A stretch of DNA of 64,000 nt from Planctomycetaceae bacterium (GTDB lineage: Bacteria > Planctomycetota > Planctomycetia > Planctomycetales > Planctomycetaceae), in contig PBSL01000001.1 in assembly GCA_002726205.1 (NCBI GenBank), positions 1 through 64,000 on the forward strand, given 5' to 3'. Numbering within the stretch: the stretch's first letter is position 1; every line of letters starts with the position of its first letter. Below, in pieces: positions 38,900 through 61,446 of the stretch. The position numbers were made by a program, and so were the translations under genes. The notes below the pieces were generated by a model. It saw only the letters and a list, made by a program, of their open reading frames with translations, was not told the DNA's origin and searched no databases.

Positions 38900-40075
38900 A
38901 TGCCACGCTGGAGAAGACCGTTTCGCACACTGACATTGGCGACAGCCACGATTCTGCTTGTGGCTGTCGCCGTGTGGGCCTGGCCACGATGGCAGCGTGC
39001 CAACGACCTCGACCATCTTCAGCGACGCGGCGCGATCTTTGACTCCCGGTCACGACATCCCTCGTGGATGAAACTGGAGGGTCTGTCGCTGAGCCCCAAC
39101 GATCTCACTCGCCTGGCCAGGATTGATTCCATCGAAGACCTTGTCCTCGACGAATCCTCGCTCGGCAATCCCGACCTCGAGTCGCTCACCAAGCTCACGC
39201 ACCTGAGGCGACTTTCCCTGAATCGCACCGGAATCGGCGACGAGGGACTTCGCCACCTCTCCGCGTTGCCGCACCTGAAGATTCTGTTGCTCGACTCGGC
39301 CTATCGAGTCACCGATGCCGGGCTCCTTCACATCGCCGCTCTCGCCCGACTCGAGGAATTCAGCATCAGGGACACCGCCATGTCACTGGCAGCGTTGATC
39401 GCTCTTTCGGAGAAACACAGCACGCTGCAGATCAATTCCAGCCACGGAGTGCTCGGTGATCGCAAGCTGGCACTTTCGGGAACCGCGATCGGTGACGAGG
39501 GTCTGATCCGGCTTCACGACGCCATCGAACTGGAAGGCCTCGAACTGCCGTCCCGGATCACCGACACGGGACTCGTCCACCTGCATGGGCTAATCCGACT
39601 GCGGTTCCTTGTCCTGGCCGGTACCGCCATCACCGACAGCGGACTGGCCCCCTTGGCAAAGCGGTTGGGACGCCTGGAAGAACTTGACCTTTCCGGCTGC
39701 CGGCAGCTGACCGACCCCGGACTGGCCGTGCTGTCACAACTGGTATCGCTTCGTCAGTTGACACTCGACGGAACCTCAGCCGGACCCAAGTTTCTGATCG
39801 CACTCTCTGCTCGAACACAACTCGAGTCACTGTCGCTGGGGCGTTGCCCACGGATCAACGACAAGACGCTGCTGGCCGGTTTCGGGAGCGGGCAATGGCC
39901 CCGACTGAAGTTCCTGCGGCTCAACGGCACGTCGGTAACCGACCGCGGGATACAGTCGATCAACCTCGAGTGTGTCCCGGCATTGGAGGGCCTCGACCTG
40001 CAGGACACCGCCACAACCGGACCCGCCATCCGCGACCTCCGCCAAAGGCTGCCCGGCTGCCGTGTTCTCCGCTAG
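38900..40075 (+). CDS. Membrane-anchored leucine-rich-repeat protein
   Basis: A 391-residue protein with an N-terminal transmembrane helix (about 10-28) and at least eight planctomycete-type LRRs of the pattern LxxLxLxxTxITDxGL, for example RRLSLNRTGIGDEGLRHL and ELDLSGCRQLTDPGLAVL. It should form an extracytoplasmic solenoid for protein binding; no partner is evident. Its TAG shares a CTAG with the convergent NHL gene. Confidence 0.88.
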   Translation: MPRWRRPFRTLTLATATILLVAVAVWAWPRWQRANDLDHLQRRGAIFDSRSRHPSWMKLEGLSLSPNDLTRLARIDSIEDLVLDESSLGNPDLESLTKLTHLRRLSLNRTGIGDEGLRHLSALPHLKILLLDSAYRVTDAGLLHIAALARLEEFSIRDTAMSLAALIALSEKHSTLQINSSHGVLGDRKLALSGTAIGDEGLIRLHDAIELEGLELPSRITDTGLVHLHGLIRLRFLVLAGTAITDSGLAPLAKRLGRLEELDLSGCRQLTDPGLAVLSQLVSLRQLTLDGTSAGPKFLIALSARTQLESLSLGRCPRINDKTLLAGFGSGQWPRLKFLRLNGTSVTDRGIQSINLECVPALEGLDLQDTATTGPAIRDLRQRLPGCRVLR

Positions 40076-54366: not shown

Positions 54367-57300
54367 CTAGGCGTGGGTTGCCGTCGAACGCCGCGGCGCC
54401 TGTGACTTCGTTCCCAGGATCTGGCCGGCGAAACGGTGAAATGCGCTGTCGGGGTTCATCATCCACAACAACGCCGGGCTGGCGACAAAGATCGAGCTGT
54501 AGGTACCGACAACAACGCCCATCACCAGGCAGAAGGCAAAGCCGTGGATACCGTCGCCTCCGCCGAAGTACAGGATCACGACGACGATGAACGTCGTCAA
54601 CGAGGTCAGCAACGTTCGCGACAGCGTCTGATTCAGGCTCAGGTTGACCATCTCCGGCGTCAGTGACGGATTCTTTCCCCGGACTTCACGAATGCGGTCA
54701 AACACCACGATCGTATCGTTGAGCGAATAGCCGACGATGGTCAGAAAAGCGGCGATCATCGGCAGGTTGATCTTGAAATCCTGCAACTGTAGCAGCCCGC
54801 CCTCCCAGCCCGCCTGGCTTGCCGCCAGTCCCGCCAGGGACACTCCACCCAGTACGACCATGACGTCGTGGACCAATGCCACCACGGCAGCCAATCCAAA
54901 ATCAATTCGCTGAAACCGAAACCAGATGTAGGCAACGATGGCGACGAGGCTGAAGAGCATTGCCAACAGGGCCGAATTCTGCATCTCCACGGCAACGGCA
55001 CTGTCGAACGACGTGACTTCGTCAAACCGTGGTGTTCCATCCTGATCGGACTTCATCTGCTCCAGAGCCTTCACGACATCAGCCTTCACAACAATCGGCC
55101 GGAACCTGACAACCCAGTTCAGGGCGGTTTCGGCCCGCTTGTCATCCTCGAGCGGTTCAACTTCAAATCGGCCCTCGATCGCTGTCGGATCGAGGTTGGC
55201 CAGCGCGAGCCCTTTCTCCAATCCACCGGCCACATAGGCCACGACATTTTCACGTGCCACCTTATCGGCATTGCCAAAGTTCAATTCTGCCTGGTGACCG
55301 CCGAAGAAATCCTTGTTCGCCGCATCGGTGATTTCCCGAACCGTGTCGAAATCAACCGACATCGTTGTCAGCCTGAACTTGGAATCGTCCTTGAAGGATT
55401 CTGCGATCCAGGACTGAATCTTCTCGTTGACGCTTTCGGTTCGTGACGTGCCACGCTGGTCGTCGTCGCCCTCTTTGGCTTTGGTCGTCGTCCTCAGCCG
55501 GAAGGGAAACCCCGAACCAGCCGCCGCAACCGCTTCCGCGCCGGCTTCATCCTCGATCTGCGTGAGCTTCTCGAGTGTAAATGAATCGTCGAACTCCTCA
55601 GAGAATTTCGCGGCCCGCACCTGCTCGAGCTTCTCCTTTACGTCATCGCTGTCATGGGCTTCCCGAAACTGAAAACTGACGGCGCGTCCGCCTCGGAAGT
55701 CGATATCGAGGTTGTTCACCCCGCGGTAGAAGAATGCCGTCATGCCGACAACGATCACGAGCACCGACACGCAGGCAGCAATCGTTCGGTGGCCAATAAA
55801 GTTGAACTCACGACCGGAAATACCCGGCAACGAGTTCATCTGGATCCGCTCACGGTGCTTGCGACTTTCCCAGACATCAAAGAGCAACCGTCCCACGTAC
55901 AGCGCGGTGAACATGCTCATCACGATGCCGATGAACAGCGTGACCGCAAAACCACGGACCTGGTCGGTCCCAATTGCATAGAGCACGGCCGCGACCAGCA
56001 AAGTGGTGACGTTGGCATCGACGATCGTCGTCAGCGCCCGCGCGAAGCCGTTTTGAATCGCCATTCGCACGGCACCGCCCCGGCGTTGTTCCTCACGAAT
56101 TCGCTCGAAGATCAGCACGTTGGCATCAACGGCCATTCCGATCGTCAATACCAGTCCGGCCAGGCCCGGCAGCGTGAACGTTGCTTCGATAAATATCATC
56201 GTCCCCAGCACGAGCACCAGGTTCAGCAACAGGCAGACAATCGCCACAAGGCCCGAGAGGCGATAGTAGATGAACATGAACACGATCACGGTCAACGCGG
56301 CGATGCCGATCGCCATCACGCCCTTGTTCTGGACATCCTCACCGAGGGTCGGCGATATACTCAGCTCGCTGACCGGTTCTGGTAGCAGAGGCACTTCGAG
56401 TGCCCCCGCATCCAGCACACCAATCAACTCGTTGATTTCCTGCTTGGTGAAATCACCACTGATGATGCCATTGCTGCTGATCCGGCTTTCCAGTCGTGGC
56501 GCAGAGAAAACATTGCCATCCAACACGATAGCCAGCCGGCGGTAGAAGCTCTTGTCGGCCGTGGGTTCATTCTTCCCCGTCAGGTCACTGAACCGGTTGG
56601 ACCCGGCCATGTTCAGAGTGAAGCCAACGGCCAAGCGACCGCTGTCATCGGTCGTCTCGTAGACGCGGTAGAGATGATCGCCGGTTACGCGTCCGGTTTC
56701 CGGCTCGTACATCACCAGCACATGGTCAACCTGGTTTCCGTCGGAACCGGACCGCTCCATGATCTGGACATCGTAGCTGCCATCAACCTGTCCGTTCGGA
56801 TCGACCGGGTGCCACTGACCTTCGAGAACGCCCTCGGCGTTTCGAATCTGGTTGCCCTGCAATTGTGGATCGCGGGCACGACTTACCAACGTCGGGTGGT
56901 CACGACCGTTTGCCAGGGTTGCCAACTCCAGGCTCCCCAGTCGCGTCATCATCCGTTTTGTCTGCTCAACAACCTGGGGATCGGCACGAGGTATGATCAC
57001 CTCGATCCGATTCGTACCCAGCGGCCGGACGGTCAGTTCCTTGTTGCCTCCGGGGTTGGCACGCTTGTTGATAGCAGTAGCCATCTGTGCCATCACGGAT
57101 TTTGTCAGCTCTTTCTGCTGTTCCGTCGCCTTTACCTCGTCGACCTGTAGAACCAGGTTCGCGCCGCCGGCCAGGTCAATCCCGAGCTTGACTCCTGAAA
57201 ACAGACGCTTCAACCAAGACCCGTCACCACCGACGGGAGGCTGCGGCTTGACCGCTGGAGTCAGCACGAGTGTGGAGAGCGCCGGAAATCCGGGGATATG

Positions 57301-57756
57301 TTCGATCAGGCCCTTGGCGCTGATCCTGGTATTGGACAACGTGAGCGTCTTCAGACCGGTCAACGATTTCAGCGATTTCAACCCGTTGTCAGTGACGTTG
57401 GTGTTGCTCAGATCCAGTGTCTTGAGTTCATCGAGATTCTCCAGGTGCACCAGGCCCGCATCGGTCACCAATGTTCCCGACAGATCCAGTTCGACAACCC
57501 TGGCCAGTTGTCCGACTTCCGCGAGTTCCGGATCACCGGCAGACTGCGGAAGCGTGATCTTCTCGATCCGTTCTCGATCCTCGTCCTGCTCGATCACTGC
57601 TCCGGCACGCCGCAGGGCAATCGCCGGATCATTGTCGCTGCACCCGCCGGTCACGCCCACCAGCACAAGCATCGACGCCAACCACAGGGCAACACAACGA
57701 CTCACTTTTCCGTCTCCGGCACGTTCCGTCATCGTCTCTCTACTCACGGCTGTCAT
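54367..57756 (-). CDS. secDF: SecD-SecF fusion with N-terminal lipobox-like signal and leucine-rich repeats
   Basis: A 1129-residue protein (start ATG 57756) joining SecD and SecF, which pull secreted proteins across the membrane using proton motive force. SecD begins about residue 186 with VKLGIDLAGGANL; later come IGMAVDANVLIFERIREE (SecD TM4 region), and the SecF half with NNLDIDFRGGRAVSFQF and TIVGYSLNDTIVVFDRIREV. In place of a plain TM1, residues 1-45 are a hydrophobic segment ending in VGVTGGC39, a lipobox-like site, followed by three or four TDxGL leucine-rich repeats (about 67-165). yajC and an unknown membrane protein lie upstream. Confidence 0.93.
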   Translation of the reverse strand: MTAVSRETMTERAGDGKVSRCVALWLASMLVLVGVTGGCSDNDPAIALRRAGAVIEQDEDRERIEKITLPQSAGDPELAEVGQLARVVELDLSGTLVTDAGLVHLENLDELKTLDLSNTNVTDNGLKSLKSLTGLKTLTLSNTRISAKGLIEHIPGFPALSTLVLTPAVKPQPPVGGDGSWLKRLFSGVKLGIDLAGGANLVLQVDEVKATEQQKELTKSVMAQMATAINKRANPGGNKELTVRPLGTNRIEVIIPRADPQVVEQTKRMMTRLGSLELATLANGRDHPTLVSRARDPQLQGNQIRNAEGVLEGQWHPVDPNGQVDGSYDVQIMERSGSDGNQVDHVLVMYEPETGRVTGDHLYRVYETTDDSGRLAVGFTLNMAGSNRFSDLTGKNEPTADKSFYRRLAIVLDGNVFSAPRLESRISSNGIISGDFTKQEINELIGVLDAGALEVPLLPEPVSELSISPTLGEDVQNKGVMAIGIAALTVIVFMFIYYRLSGLVAIVCLLLNLVLVLGTMIFIEATFTLPGLAGLVLTIGMAVDANVLIFERIREEQRRGGAVRMAIQNGFARALTTIVDANVTTLLVAAVLYAIGTDQVRGFAVTLFIGIVMSMFTALYVGRLLFDVWESRKHRERIQMNSLPGISGREFNFIGHRTIAACVSVLVIVVGMTAFFYRGVNNLDIDFRGGRAVSFQFREAHDSDDVKEKLEQVRAAKFSEEFDDSFTLEKLTQIEDEAGAEAVAAAGSGFPFRLRTTTKAKEGDDDQRGTSRTESVNEKIQSWIAESFKDDSKFRLTTMSVDFDTVREITDAANKDFFGGHQAELNFGNADKVARENVVAYVAGGLEKGLALANLDPTAIEGRFEVEPLEDDKRAETALNWVVRFRPIVVKADVVKALEQMKSDQDGTPRFDEVTSFDSAVAVEMQNSALLAMLFSLVAIVAYIWFRFQRIDFGLAAVVALVHDVMVVLGGVSLAGLAASQAGWEGGLLQLQDFKINLPMIAAFLTIVGYSLNDTIVVFDRIREVRGKNPSLTPEMVNLSLNQTLSRTLLTSLTTFIVVVILYFGGGDGIHGFAFCLVMGVVVGTYSSIFVASPALLWMMNPDSAFHRFAGQILGTKSQAPRRSTATHA

Positions 57757-57760
57757 CTGA

Positions 57761-58516
57761 TTATTCTTTCGGCGCGGCGTCGGAATCGTCCGATCCGTCG
57801 GTACCAATCGTCGCGATGGGCTGCTGGTCGTAGATCACCGTCAAGCCGGGGACATCAAGACTGGTCTTGATCGACTCGTTGACCCTGTACTCACGATTCT
57901 GGCTGTCGTACTCATCGATCGCCTGGCTGTAGGCTCGTTCTTCGGCAGCATCCACAACCAGTTCCTTGGCCATCGGCCAAATCCCCAGCGTGACTGCCGT
58001 CGCCACGACACCAAACCGAAACGAGGCCTCTTCCATCCCCAGCTTCATCGCCACCAACCGGCCCACGCTCAGTGGAACGGCGAAGGTGGCCCCGATCAGG
58101 AACAACGCTCGTGTGCCCGTTTCACTGTCGAAGAACAGTCCCGGTCGAAATGCGAACACGACCAAGGCCAGAAACACATAGAGCAGACACATCAGTGGGA
58201 ACAGGCGACCGGGGAGTTGTTCCCGCGAACCCATCCATCCGCCCAGGCCGATGATCCCCAGCATCAACCCCAGCAGAACCCGGGTGCCGGTGTCCAGTTC
58301 AACGACCAGCCCGGGCACCAGTGCGCCGACCGCCATCATCGCGGCAAAGCCCAGGACACCCATCGTGATGTAGCTATCCTCGAAGGCCTCCTGCCTGGCA
58401 CATCGCCGGGACACGAACACACCGCCGACCACGGCGATCACCAAGTAAGCCGCCGACACCCAGGCCGGCACCTCGGCCAAAAGTAGGGGAACCGATAGCG
58501 GATGACTCGCGTTCAT
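57761..58516 (-). CDS. Multi-TM membrane protein of unknown function in the Sec locus
   Basis: A 251-residue membrane protein (start ATG 58516) between yajC and secDF. It has about six hydrophobic helices in the first 190 residues and an extracytoplasmic or cytoplasmic acidic tail (DSQNREYRVNES and DDSDAAPKE). I do not recognise a named family. It ends four bases before the secDF ATG, and starts about 55 bases after yajC, so it is probably co-transcribed. An in-frame ATG at 58543 gives nine more residues. Confidence 0.75.
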   Translation of the reverse strand: MNASHPLSVPLLLAEVPAWVSAAYLVIAVVGGVFVSRRCARQEAFEDSYITMGVLGFAAMMAVGALVPGLVVELDTGTRVLLGLMLGIIGLGGWMGSREQLPGRLFPLMCLLYVFLALVVFAFRPGLFFDSETGTRALFLIGATFAVPLSVGRLVAMKLGMEEASFRFGVVATAVTLGIWPMAKELVVDAAEERAYSQAIDEYDSQNREYRVNESIKTSLDVPGLTVIYDQQPIATIGTDGSDDSDAAPKE

Positions 58517-58571
58517 CTGAATCCCGTTTCCGTCTGGAATCACCTGAAAATACTGTCAGACCCTGGGCTGT

Positions 58572-59072
58572 TCAGTCGCCGGAATCGTCACCTGACGACT
58601 TTCCTTCCCCGTCGCTGTCAGGCCCCATCGGCCCCTGAATGCTGCGGCGCAGAAACTGCAGCTGCGTGTCACGGTCGACCTCCAGGACCACGAGATCGCG
58701 ACCTTCATCGACCGACACGACTGTCCCGACAATGCCACCCGCGGTGACAACACGATCGTGTTTTTGCAGCGAACTGATCATCGCCTCCCGCTTCCGACGC
58801 TCTTTTTTCTGGGGTGCAAGTACGATGAAATAAAAGAGCAGCCCCATGCCGATGATCAGGATCATCGGGTTGCCCATCAGGCCCGGTGGTTGGTCCTTTT
58901 TGGGATCTGCATCCGGTGCCGCTTCATCGGCGGGAGCCGAATCAGGCGCCACATCGGCGGGAGCCGAATCAGGCGCCACATTCTTCTGGGCGGCAACCGG
59001 CAACACCATCAACAGTGCCAGCGCCACCACGGCCACCAGGCCGACGACTCCAATTTCACGCTGACACAACAT
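58572..59072 (-). CDS. yajC: Preprotein translocase subunit YajC
   Basis: YajC binds SecDF in the Sec holotranslocon. The 166-residue protein has the classical PMILIIGMGLLFYFIVLAPQKK anchor-like helix at about 69-89 followed by KERRKREAM and VVTAGGIVGTV. Unusually for a small YajC it has an additional N-terminal hydrophobic segment (about 9-28, signal-like) and an Ala/Pro/Asp repeat linker. The product is longer than the typical YajC of about 110 residues. It precedes the unknown membrane gene and secDF. Confidence 0.92.
   Translation of the reverse strand: MLCQREIGVVGLVAVVALALLMVLPVAAQKNVAPDSAPADVAPDSAPADEAAPDADPKKDQPPGLMGNPMILIIGMGLLFYFIVLAPQKKERRKREAMISSLQKHDRVVTAGGIVGTVVSVDEGRDLVVLEVDRDTQLQFLRRSIQGPMGPDSDGEGKSSGDDSGD
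58927..58980 (-). repeat. 27-bp in-frame duplication in yajC
   Basis: Two identical 27-base copies (58927-58953 and 58954-58980) encode APDSAPADV-type units in the linker of YajC. It is a perfect direct repeat, so it is a recent duplication or an active slippage site. Confidence 0.9.
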
Positions 59073-59281: not shown

Positions 59282-60412
59282 CTAGACGGATGTTGTCAAA
59301 GCGGCAAGGTGAACAGAGTGAAACTCATCGAGCCGATCCATCCTGATGGCCTCGCCCAGGGATCGCAGGAAGTTCTGGTAGAACATGAGGTTATGGTAAG
59401 ACAACATGATCGGACCCAGCATCTCCTTGGCCTGGAAGAGATGCCGGATGTAACCCCGGCTGAATCCCGAACACACCCGACAACGACAATTCGCATCCAG
59501 CGGTCCGCGATCGGTCTTGAAACGGCTGTTGCGGATCCGTATTTCTCCTTCCGAGGTGAATGCTGACGCGCTGCGACCGTTGCGAGTGGGCATCACGCAA
59601 TCAAACAGATCCACGCCTCGCACCACGGCCTCGAACAGGTCCCGTGGCGTACCAACCCCCATCAGGTACCTCGGCCGGTCAACCGGCAGCAGAGGTACCG
59701 TCACGTCAAGAGTGTCGTACATGGCATCGGGAGACTCGCCGACACTCAATCCTCCGATCGCATATCCCGGGAAATCCAGCGGGAGCAACCCGTCGGCTGA
59801 TCGTTGCCGTTCGGCCGGGTTCGTTCCTCCCTGAACGATGCCAAACAAGGCCTGATCGTCACGGGTTTGCGCATCGCGGCACCGGGTCGCCCAGCGAGTT
59901 GTTCGTTCCACCGCATGCCGCAGCGTCTCGATCGGCACATCATGCGACGGACATTCGTCAAGGCACATGATGCAGTCGGCGCCCAACTGTTCCTGGATGC
60001 CAATCGCTCTCTCGGGCGTCAACTCCAACCAGGCCCCGTCGATGTGCGATTTGAAGGAGACCCCCTCCTCGGTCAGGTTTGCCAATTGCGCCAGGCTGAA
60101 AACCTGGAAGCCACCACTGTCGGTCAGAATTGGTCCGTCCCATTGCATGAATTCATGCAGGCCTCCCAACGCCTCGACGACATCCGAGCCCGGCCTCAAG
60201 GCCAGATGGTAGGTGTTTGCCAGGACCATCTGCGCGCCGGTTTCTCGCAAGTCCTCGGGCCAGTGCCCCTTGACCGTCCCACACGTCCCCACCGGCATGA
60301 ATGCCGGTGTCTGCACGGTCCCGTGAGGCGTTTTCCATGTTCCGCACCGCGCCGCGGTACCGGAACTCGTTGCCAAGATCTCGAATTCAAATGCACGGGC
60401 CGAGCAATTCAC
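59282..60412 (-). CDS. tgt: Queuine/preQ1 tRNA-guanine transglycosylase Tgt
   Basis: Tgt exchanges guanine 34 of certain tRNAs for preQ1. The 376-residue length from GTG 60412 is standard; the GTG overlaps the upstream TGA as GTGA. Motifs: [27 protein letters not shown] (catalytic Asp), [11 protein letters not shown], nucleophile region [14 protein letters not shown] and Zn ligands CRCRVC with a downstream His. It pairs functionally with queA at 9426-10502. The next genes downstream are yajC and secDF, the classical tgt-yajC-secDF order. Confidence 0.95.
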
Positions 60413-61446
60413 GAGATTCCTTCCAGGGCCTTGTTGATCTGGTCGACGTACCACGAAAAGAATCGGATCACAAAGAATACGATGAACCCCGCAACGGTTG
60501 CCCAGATCACCCAGGCGAAAGCGCCACACATCCTCGACAGAGAACGTCGGGCCTGCTCCTGAAACTCCGGGCTGAGCCGCTGCAACTGTTCCGGAACAGT
60601 CCCGGACGTTTCTCCGACGTGGACAATCTCGAGAAACTCCTCGGGAAACAACCCGACATCGGACAGGGCTTCGGAGAGCGACTCACCAGCCTCGATGCTG
60701 CGACAGACCGTCTCGGTGGCTGCCACGAACGCTCCGTTACCGGTTGCCCGAAAAGACGCCGTCAAGCTCTGACGCATCGGCATCCCCGTCTGTTGTGTCA
60801 GGTAGTAAGCCCAGGAAAAACGAGAAATCGCAAACGCACGCTGACACGACCCCACGACCGGAATCCCCAACAGCAAGCGGTCGAGTACGCGACGGGCCGC
60901 GATCGTCCGCGCGGCCAACAGGTAGCCGCCTGTCAGCAGCCCGACGATTCCATAGACGATCGCCAACCAGATGATGGCGCCGCCACCGCCGCGCAATCCG
61001 AAAGTCACGACCGCGAGTGCCTCACCACCGGGAATCATCCCCAGGACGACAATCAGCAGAGCAATCACCAGCGTGGCAATGACGAACTGGACAACCGGCC
61101 AGGTGATCTGTGAAACAAACTGCCGTCGCAATCTCACCGTGTTCTCGAAATGTTCGGCCAGATGTTCGAGTACCTCCGGCAGGGCCCCGCTGTGTTCGGA
61201 CATTCGCACCATGTCGATCATCAGCGTCGGGAATCGCCCGACCTGGGCAGCCATGGCCTCCGAGACCTCTTCACCCTGACGGACCAACTCCGACATTTCT
61301 CTCAGTGCGCGGTCGCAGCGGGGATCCCGACTCTTCCTTCCGGCAACTTCCAGGGCGCGGATCACCGCGACGCCGGAATGCAGCAGTGTCGACAGGCTGC
61401 GACAGGCGACAGCCAACGCGCTCTTGCGAATCTGTGGTCCCAACAC
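60409..61446 (-). CDS. Type II secretion/type IV pilus F-domain protein (GspF/PilC family)
   Basis: A 345-residue inner-membrane protein with two T2SF domains. The first has the [15 protein letters not shown] and [19 protein letters not shown] segments, the second [17 protein letters not shown] and [17 protein letters not shown], separated by helices at about 115-170 and ending in a third at about 310-330. GspF proteins form the platform of secretion or pilus systems. No other gsp or pil gene is near, so it is an orphan. Start is a GTG at 61446; its stop overlaps the tgt GTG. Confidence 0.9.

Follow-up and report, generated by a model that had tools for sequence, protein, structure and literature searches.

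The window, a 64,000-nucleotide stretch from the genome of a Planctomycetaceae bacterium, encodes a real and recurrent variant of SecDF, in which a lipoprotein-type signal and leucine-rich repeats (LRRs) stand before the P1 domain of SecD. Judged by sequence profiles, SecD is almost certainly split precisely between TM1 and P1, with TM1 carried by the gene next door. We consider it fairly probable (about 0.7) that the two products form a functional SecDF, composed of a TM1 protein and a lipid-anchored LRR-P1-SecF chain, which would reassemble with an LRR platform beside P1. SecDF is a conserved motor of protein export, and debate on its power stroke continues; planctomycetes, for their part, have an unusual cell envelope and are very rich in LRR proteins. 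As far as the literature shows, the LRR-bearing split SecDF is an undescribed variant: our search, which covered subscription papers only in part, found no description of an LRR-bearing or split SecD.

The LRR-SecDF gene and its occurrence

The gene is a single unbroken reading frame of 1129 codons with its start ATG at 57756 (Table 1). Pfam recognized two SecD_SecF_C domains (3e-73), SecDF_P1_head (1e-20) and Sec_GG (5e-6) in the product, and the NCBIfam models for secD and secF both scored above their cut-offs, so that by its SecD_SecF_C domains, P1 head and GG motif the protein belongs to SecDF. From residue 188 onward, Pfam, NCBIfam, a PDB sequence search and the AlphaFold model concur on this identity. 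Residue 189 aligns with residue 33 of Thermus thermophilus SecDF (TtSecDF); hence residues 1-188 occupy the place of the 32 N-terminal residues of TtSecDF with its TM1. The equivalents of TtSecDF D340, D637 and R671, which are D544, D1014 and R1047 in the window, are invariant in the aligned carriers, and the 2011 TtSecDF structure paper reportedly found the three residues to matter for proton-driven function.

Table 1. Features of the LRR-SecDF locus (positions in the window)
Feature	Position	Strand	Basis or remark
LRR-lipoprotein SecDF (second half of split SecD, and SecF)	54367..57756	-	1129 aa; Pfam, NCBIfam, AlphaFold, relatives
Lipoprotein-type signal, residues 1-39	57640..57756	-	PS51257 pattern; Cys39 codon 57640-57642
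N-cap and leucine-rich repeats, residues 53-166	57259..57600	-	Pfam LRR_4, LRR_8; AlphaFold strands 54-164; leave-one-out profile
LRR-to-P1 linker, residues 167-187	57196..57258	-	Alignments; low pLDDT at 167-177
SecD P1 periplasmic domain, residues 188-467, from GIDLAGG motif	56356..57195	-	Sec_GG, SecDF_P1_head
SecD TM2-TM6, residues 469-631, including D544	55864..56352	-	TtSecDF alignment, AlphaFold model
SecF part, residues 654-1100, including D1014, R1047	54457..55797	-	TtSecDF alignment, AlphaFold model
Upstream gene, 251 aa, ATG 58516 (GTG 58543 possible), C-terminal extra helix and SecD TM1	57761..58516	-	TM_a+TM1 profile E=1.6e-8
Extracytoplasmic tail of upstream protein	57764..57958	-	Homologous to tails with LRR C-cap-like motif in G009, G011, G013
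Segment equivalent to TM_a and TM1 of intact family SecDFs	57959..58132	-	Profile; MAFFT alignment
yajC	58572..59072	-	Pfam YajC 5e-22
tgt (queuine tRNA-ribosyltransferase), conserved upstream neighbour	59282..60529	-	Motif recognized in translation

The AlphaFold model, built with 33 sequences (mean pLDDT 81), contained the LRR, TM2-6 of SecD and six SecF helices, and its best matches were the I form of SecDF (5xan, Z 49; 5xap, Z 46). Residues 54-164 were modelled as four to five strand/helix units of LRR type (pLDDT about 80-88), and these tandem strand-turn-helix units were matched by solved LRR chains; the Pfam LRR_4 match (7e-6) fell 0.5 bit short of the gathering score (26.5 versus 27). 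In the alignment, a linker motif like EPxxPxxRSxxDAx is common to the carriers G009, G011 and G013. Elsewhere in the window (38900-40075, forward strand) lies the gene of a separate LRR protein of 391 residues, which has a helix at its N-terminus and the LRR C-cap (RDLRQRLPGCRVLR) typical of planctomycetes.

The window's genome contains one SecD/SecF set only, and no second SecD P1 domain was found in it. We rejected the presence of a further, ordinary SecD at another locus, the other SecD_SecF_C matches being long frames outside the window that we read as RND-type transporters. As it provides the sole SecD P1 of the genome, LRR-SecDF must be the working copy.

A first search among 59 relatives gave three more genomes that matched through the LRR part. 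When the N-terminal 311 positions were made into a profile and run over 170 family genomes, at least eight carriers in six genera were found among the matches listed: the window's genome (G000), G189-G191 (one genus), G184, G013, G009 and G011. The seven others share 47-64% identity with the window protein over the full length where complete, and one carrier is PBMZ01000165.1, from Planctomycetaceae bacterium SP200. Since the architecture occurs in seven further genomes, it is not an assembly artefact. A scan of contigs gave one LRR-type locus only (L080, on the same contig as G009). Outside the family, no LRR-type SecDF was detected in samples of 397 class and 392 phylum genomes at thresholds of 1e-50 and 1e-62, which are strict enough for very divergent carriers to be missed.

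These analyses confirmed the observation of the preliminary description and supported its interpretation in part. It had proposed LRRs ahead of P1 in a frame continuous into SecD; Pfam (LRR_4, LRR_8) and the modelled strands and helices agree on the repeats, and the frame, with neither stop nor frameshift, is intact in the window and conserved in all carriers found. Its extracytoplasmic LRR on SecD, still a prediction, is supported together with the signal and the continuous frame into P1, and the lipobox-like signal that it pointed out also holds (see below). The recurrence of the LRR extension and the Cys among planctomycete SecDs, which it had proposed to check, was found in at least eight of the 170 family genomes, the Cys in 8/8, and its authors likewise knew of no earlier description of such a SecD.

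The upstream gene and TM1 of SecD

In ordinary SecDFs of the family, GIDLAGG is preceded by a pair of hydrophobic helices (about -62 to -44 and -35 to -17 relative to the motif); wherever the SecDF of another family genome was read, helices lay ahead of the motif in the same chain, and none of these proteins has an LRR. The carriers lack both helices and have instead one hydrophobic stretch some 165 residues upstream of GIDLAGG, which ends in Gly-Cys. We built a profile of the two helices (TM_a+TM1) from 47 ordinary N-termini and searched it against every ORF around the carriers. In 8/8 carriers the profile matched the ORF directly upstream of LRR-secDF, with E values of 1e-20 to 1e-18 in G009, G011 and G184, 3e-13 to 3e-12 in G013, G191, G189 and G190, and 1.6e-8 in the window (ORF 57764-58555, reverse strand). 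When the upstream sequence of the window was joined to SecD, MAFFT placed the N-termini of intact SecDFs on the upstream helices unprompted. TM1 is therefore encoded upstream and not in the same chain immediately before P1. Because the gene immediately upstream encodes TM_a and TM1 in all LRR-SecDF genomes found, SecD is best described as split, not truncated. The point of the preliminary description to be amended is that TM1 of SecD was simply lost or replaced, since the missing helices sit next door in all eight carriers.

The order tgt - yajC - TM1 gene - LRR-secDF is present in the window and recurs in, or is consistent with, the other complete loci. In the window the upstream gene stops 4 nt ahead of the secDF ATG, and the corresponding gap is about 110-160 nt in others, e.g. 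G009 and G184; readthrough or frameshifting as a general means of joining the two genes was rejected on these distances. The proton channel of SecDF is reported to comprise TM4, 5, 6 and 10 (PMC9508474) and not TM1, so a split at TM1 keeps the channel in one chain. Annotating the upstream gene as SecD TM1 also leaves one apparent orphan membrane protein fewer.

Selection was compared between G191 and G189. The dN/dS values were 0.082/0.42 for the LRR part (ratio about 0.2), 0.045/0.51 for SecD, 0.045/0.33 for the upstream TM_a+TM1 segment and 0.08/0.40 for the whole upstream gene; all of these parts, the LRR, SecD (P1), the upstream helices and the whole upstream gene, are under purifying selection.

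Several other features of this region were observed. About 125 extra hydrophobic residues with several predicted helices precede TM_a in the window (58133-58516, reverse strand); they are present in the window's genome and genus g76 and absent in the other carriers. Internal duplication as their source gained no significant support, the likeness to the TM_a+TM1 hairpin being weak (hhalign probability 2%). In the N-terminal region of YajC (58900-59000, reverse strand), a signal-like segment is followed by a short repeat in tandem (APDSAPADVAPDSAPADEAAPDADP). Three ordinary family SecDFs, L016 (G021), L028 (G008) and L167 (G031), have inserts of 50-100 residues between TM1 and P1. In SecDs of Verrucomicrobiota and related groups (L101, L105, L110, L112, L132 and similar), TM1 lies 90-140 residues before the GG motif, and these long segments indicate that the junction is widely tolerant of insertions.

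The signal segment and competing readings

The segment ...VLVGVTGGC39 matches the PROSITE lipoprotein pattern PS51257. This pattern with basic residues ahead of the core was found in 8/8 carriers versus 5/136 ordinary SecD N-termini, and all eight have the basic n-region, hydrophobic core and Cys-bearing lipobox of a bacterial lipoprotein, although the lipobox of the window, VTGGC, is non-canonical and its n-region long. G38-C39 is invariant across eight carrier species in six genera, while the remainder of the segment is not conserved, and Lgt (two copies) and LspA are encoded in the window's genome. A chain that lacks TM1 needs another export route for P1; a cleavable lipoprotein signal supplies one and also accounts for the Cys. 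We infer that C39 of LRR-SecDF is very likely lipidated.

It is improbable that the signal instead stays uncleaved as an anchor in the position of TM1, with the LRR inserted between anchor and P1 and the upstream gene a leftover or in some other function. The hydrophobicity of the segment resembles that of TM1, SecDs of other phyla have inserts of 50-100 residues between TM1 and P1, and AlphaFold, run on the chain alone, placed the signal helix roughly at the TM1 position, its residues 21-36 near SecDF TM1 (the alignment with 5xan began at model residue 21, opposite residue 36); this placement keeps the reading alive. The confidence at the signal helix was below 55 (pLDDT 30-53), which counts against an anchor there but says little, since in a control with an intact family SecDF its own TM_a/TM1 reached only about 51-71. 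Against an uncleaved anchor, too, Cys and lipobox are the part kept in eight species, and true TM1 has been retained next door, under purifying selection, in every carrier.

Slightly less probable again is that the ancestral TM1 has become redundant, so that an 11-TM lipid-anchored SecDF works without it and the upstream protein does an independent job, e.g. as a YajC-like helper. TM1 does lie outside the reported proton channel (PMC9508474), and the upstream protein of the window's genus and g76 has the further hydrophobic N-terminal region; against this, the family's TM_a+TM1 sequence is retained beside secDF in every case, and in G009 both the helices and the SecD body side with G006/G030, as if the parts had kept evolving together. 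LRRs abound in planctomycete genomes and are mobile there, but that SecD starts internally after the LRRs, or that the LRR-lipoprotein part is a decaying insertion in a real frame, is very improbable given an LRR and signal in frame in eight species, an LRR dN/dS of about 0.2 and a P1 that would be stranded in the cytoplasm without signal or TM1.

Origin, assembly and relation to known systems

The window's own genome encodes a free-standing LRR lipoprotein with the layout ILGC-...-LEESGASV...-LRR, and by sequence the LRR head of SecDF is of this planctomycete LRR-lipoprotein type. In a leave-one-out analysis, each held-out LRR-SecDF head scored 111-149 bits versus up to 116 for the best free-standing LRRs (the margin of G009 being small), which suggests a single origin of the cassette. 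In a tree of 47 SecDFs, the LRR-SecDFs were scattered and about four changes were needed; the AU test rejected a single clade (p=0.021), and one origin by simple vertical descent is not supported. This scatter suggests transfer of the cassette or its repeated loss. For the upstream helices of G009, the nearest counterparts are in G006 and G030, the genomes with which its SecD body also groups; for those of G011, the nearest are in G019, which neighbours G011 in a quick tree. As the upstream helices track the SecD bodies, these SecD genes seem otherwise to have stayed in their lineages, and only the middle piece to have been exchanged between them or lost.

The upstream proteins have a tail of 35-70 residues after TM1, absent from most ordinary SecDFs. 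In G009 its final residues, ITDEGVEKIEEAMPNVTVQR, are like the C-caps that close planctomycete LRR proteins. A profile built from 18 such C-caps gave E values of 3e-7 in G009, 1.4e-6 in G011 and 0.004 in G013, the best unrelated control among about 1350 reaching 0.08; the tails of the window and g76 align with these three, but the cap signal is lost (in the window the motif has decayed). The cap-like tails suggest that what inserted was a stretch spanning the boundary between two tandem LRR genes, and we hypothesize that the tail of the TM1 protein meets the LRR. In a rather speculative extension, which we consider unlikely as a whole, the split SecD would be rejoined by a split LRR: the tail would cap the LRR body on the lipidated half as a non-covalent clamp, possibly a regulator linking TM1 to P1, after the junction of tandem LRR-lipoprotein genes had inserted in frame into secD and the cassette had moved between SecD lineages by recombination. 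In the ordinary SecDF of G021, the insert (YESRHAEWAEGKKAW) is similar to the helical portion of the tails on split TM1 proteins, and could represent an intermediate state.

For the split SecDF, we propose the following mechanism. The product of the upstream gene would be a small membrane protein that has the extra N-terminal helix, SecD TM1 and the extracytoplasmic tail at its C-terminal end. The product of the second gene would be exported via its lipoprotein signal, cleaved before Cys39 and lipid-anchored, to run on as LRR, P1, TM2-6 and SecF with the customary topology. Both products, synthesized next to each other from the tgt-yajC-secD(TM1)-secDF cluster, would reassemble in the membrane as a proton-driven SecDF; assembly of the TM1 protein in trans with SecDF is likely in our judgement. 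The LRR platform would then lie next to P1 at the SecYEG exit, where it may bind emerging substrates or an envelope partner, such as a chaperone, YidC or the tail of the TM1 protein itself, although a docking role of the LRR on SecDF is tentative. In E. coli, SecDF-YidC recruits the chaperone SurA through its periplasmic parts (PMC9987972); by analogy, the LRR could do a SurA-like docking job, or hold the TM1 tail. A natural SecDF with TM1 detached from P1, and P1 presumably hung from a lipid-anchored LRR, offers a test of the TM1-P1 connection in coupling. It also indicates that a core part of the translocon can be split and gain a new extracytoplasmic domain, with a putative role in recognition.

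To our knowledge, Vibrio SecD2/F2 has neither a split nor an LRR. It is, like the present protein, a lineage-specific SecDF variant, regulated by VemP (PMC11470409), but regulation by an arrest peptide is Vibrio's. Free-standing planctomycete LRR lipoproteins (e.g. G000:C37:26358, L189, in the window's own genome; G094:C30, L174) share with LRR-SecDF the lipobox GC, the short N-cap and the LRR type, and are, by this likeness, the likely source of the cassette; however, they are not fused to a membrane protein and end in an LRR C-cap, which is absent from the SecDF fusion. Intact planctomycete SecDF fusions of the same family (e.g. L076, L155, L156) have P1, TM2-6, SecF and the proton-path residues in common with the window protein, but carry TM_a and TM1 in the chain directly before P1, with neither lipoprotein signal nor LRR. 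T. thermophilus SecDF (PDB 3aqp, 5xan, 5xap, 5yhf) has the same P1/TM2-12 fold (Z 41-49), and its D340, D637 and R671 have equivalents that are kept in the window. In contrast, its TM1 is covalently attached before residue 33, it has no lipoprotein signal and no LRR, and it forms one 12-TM chain, where the window encodes 11 TM segments and a separate TM1 protein.
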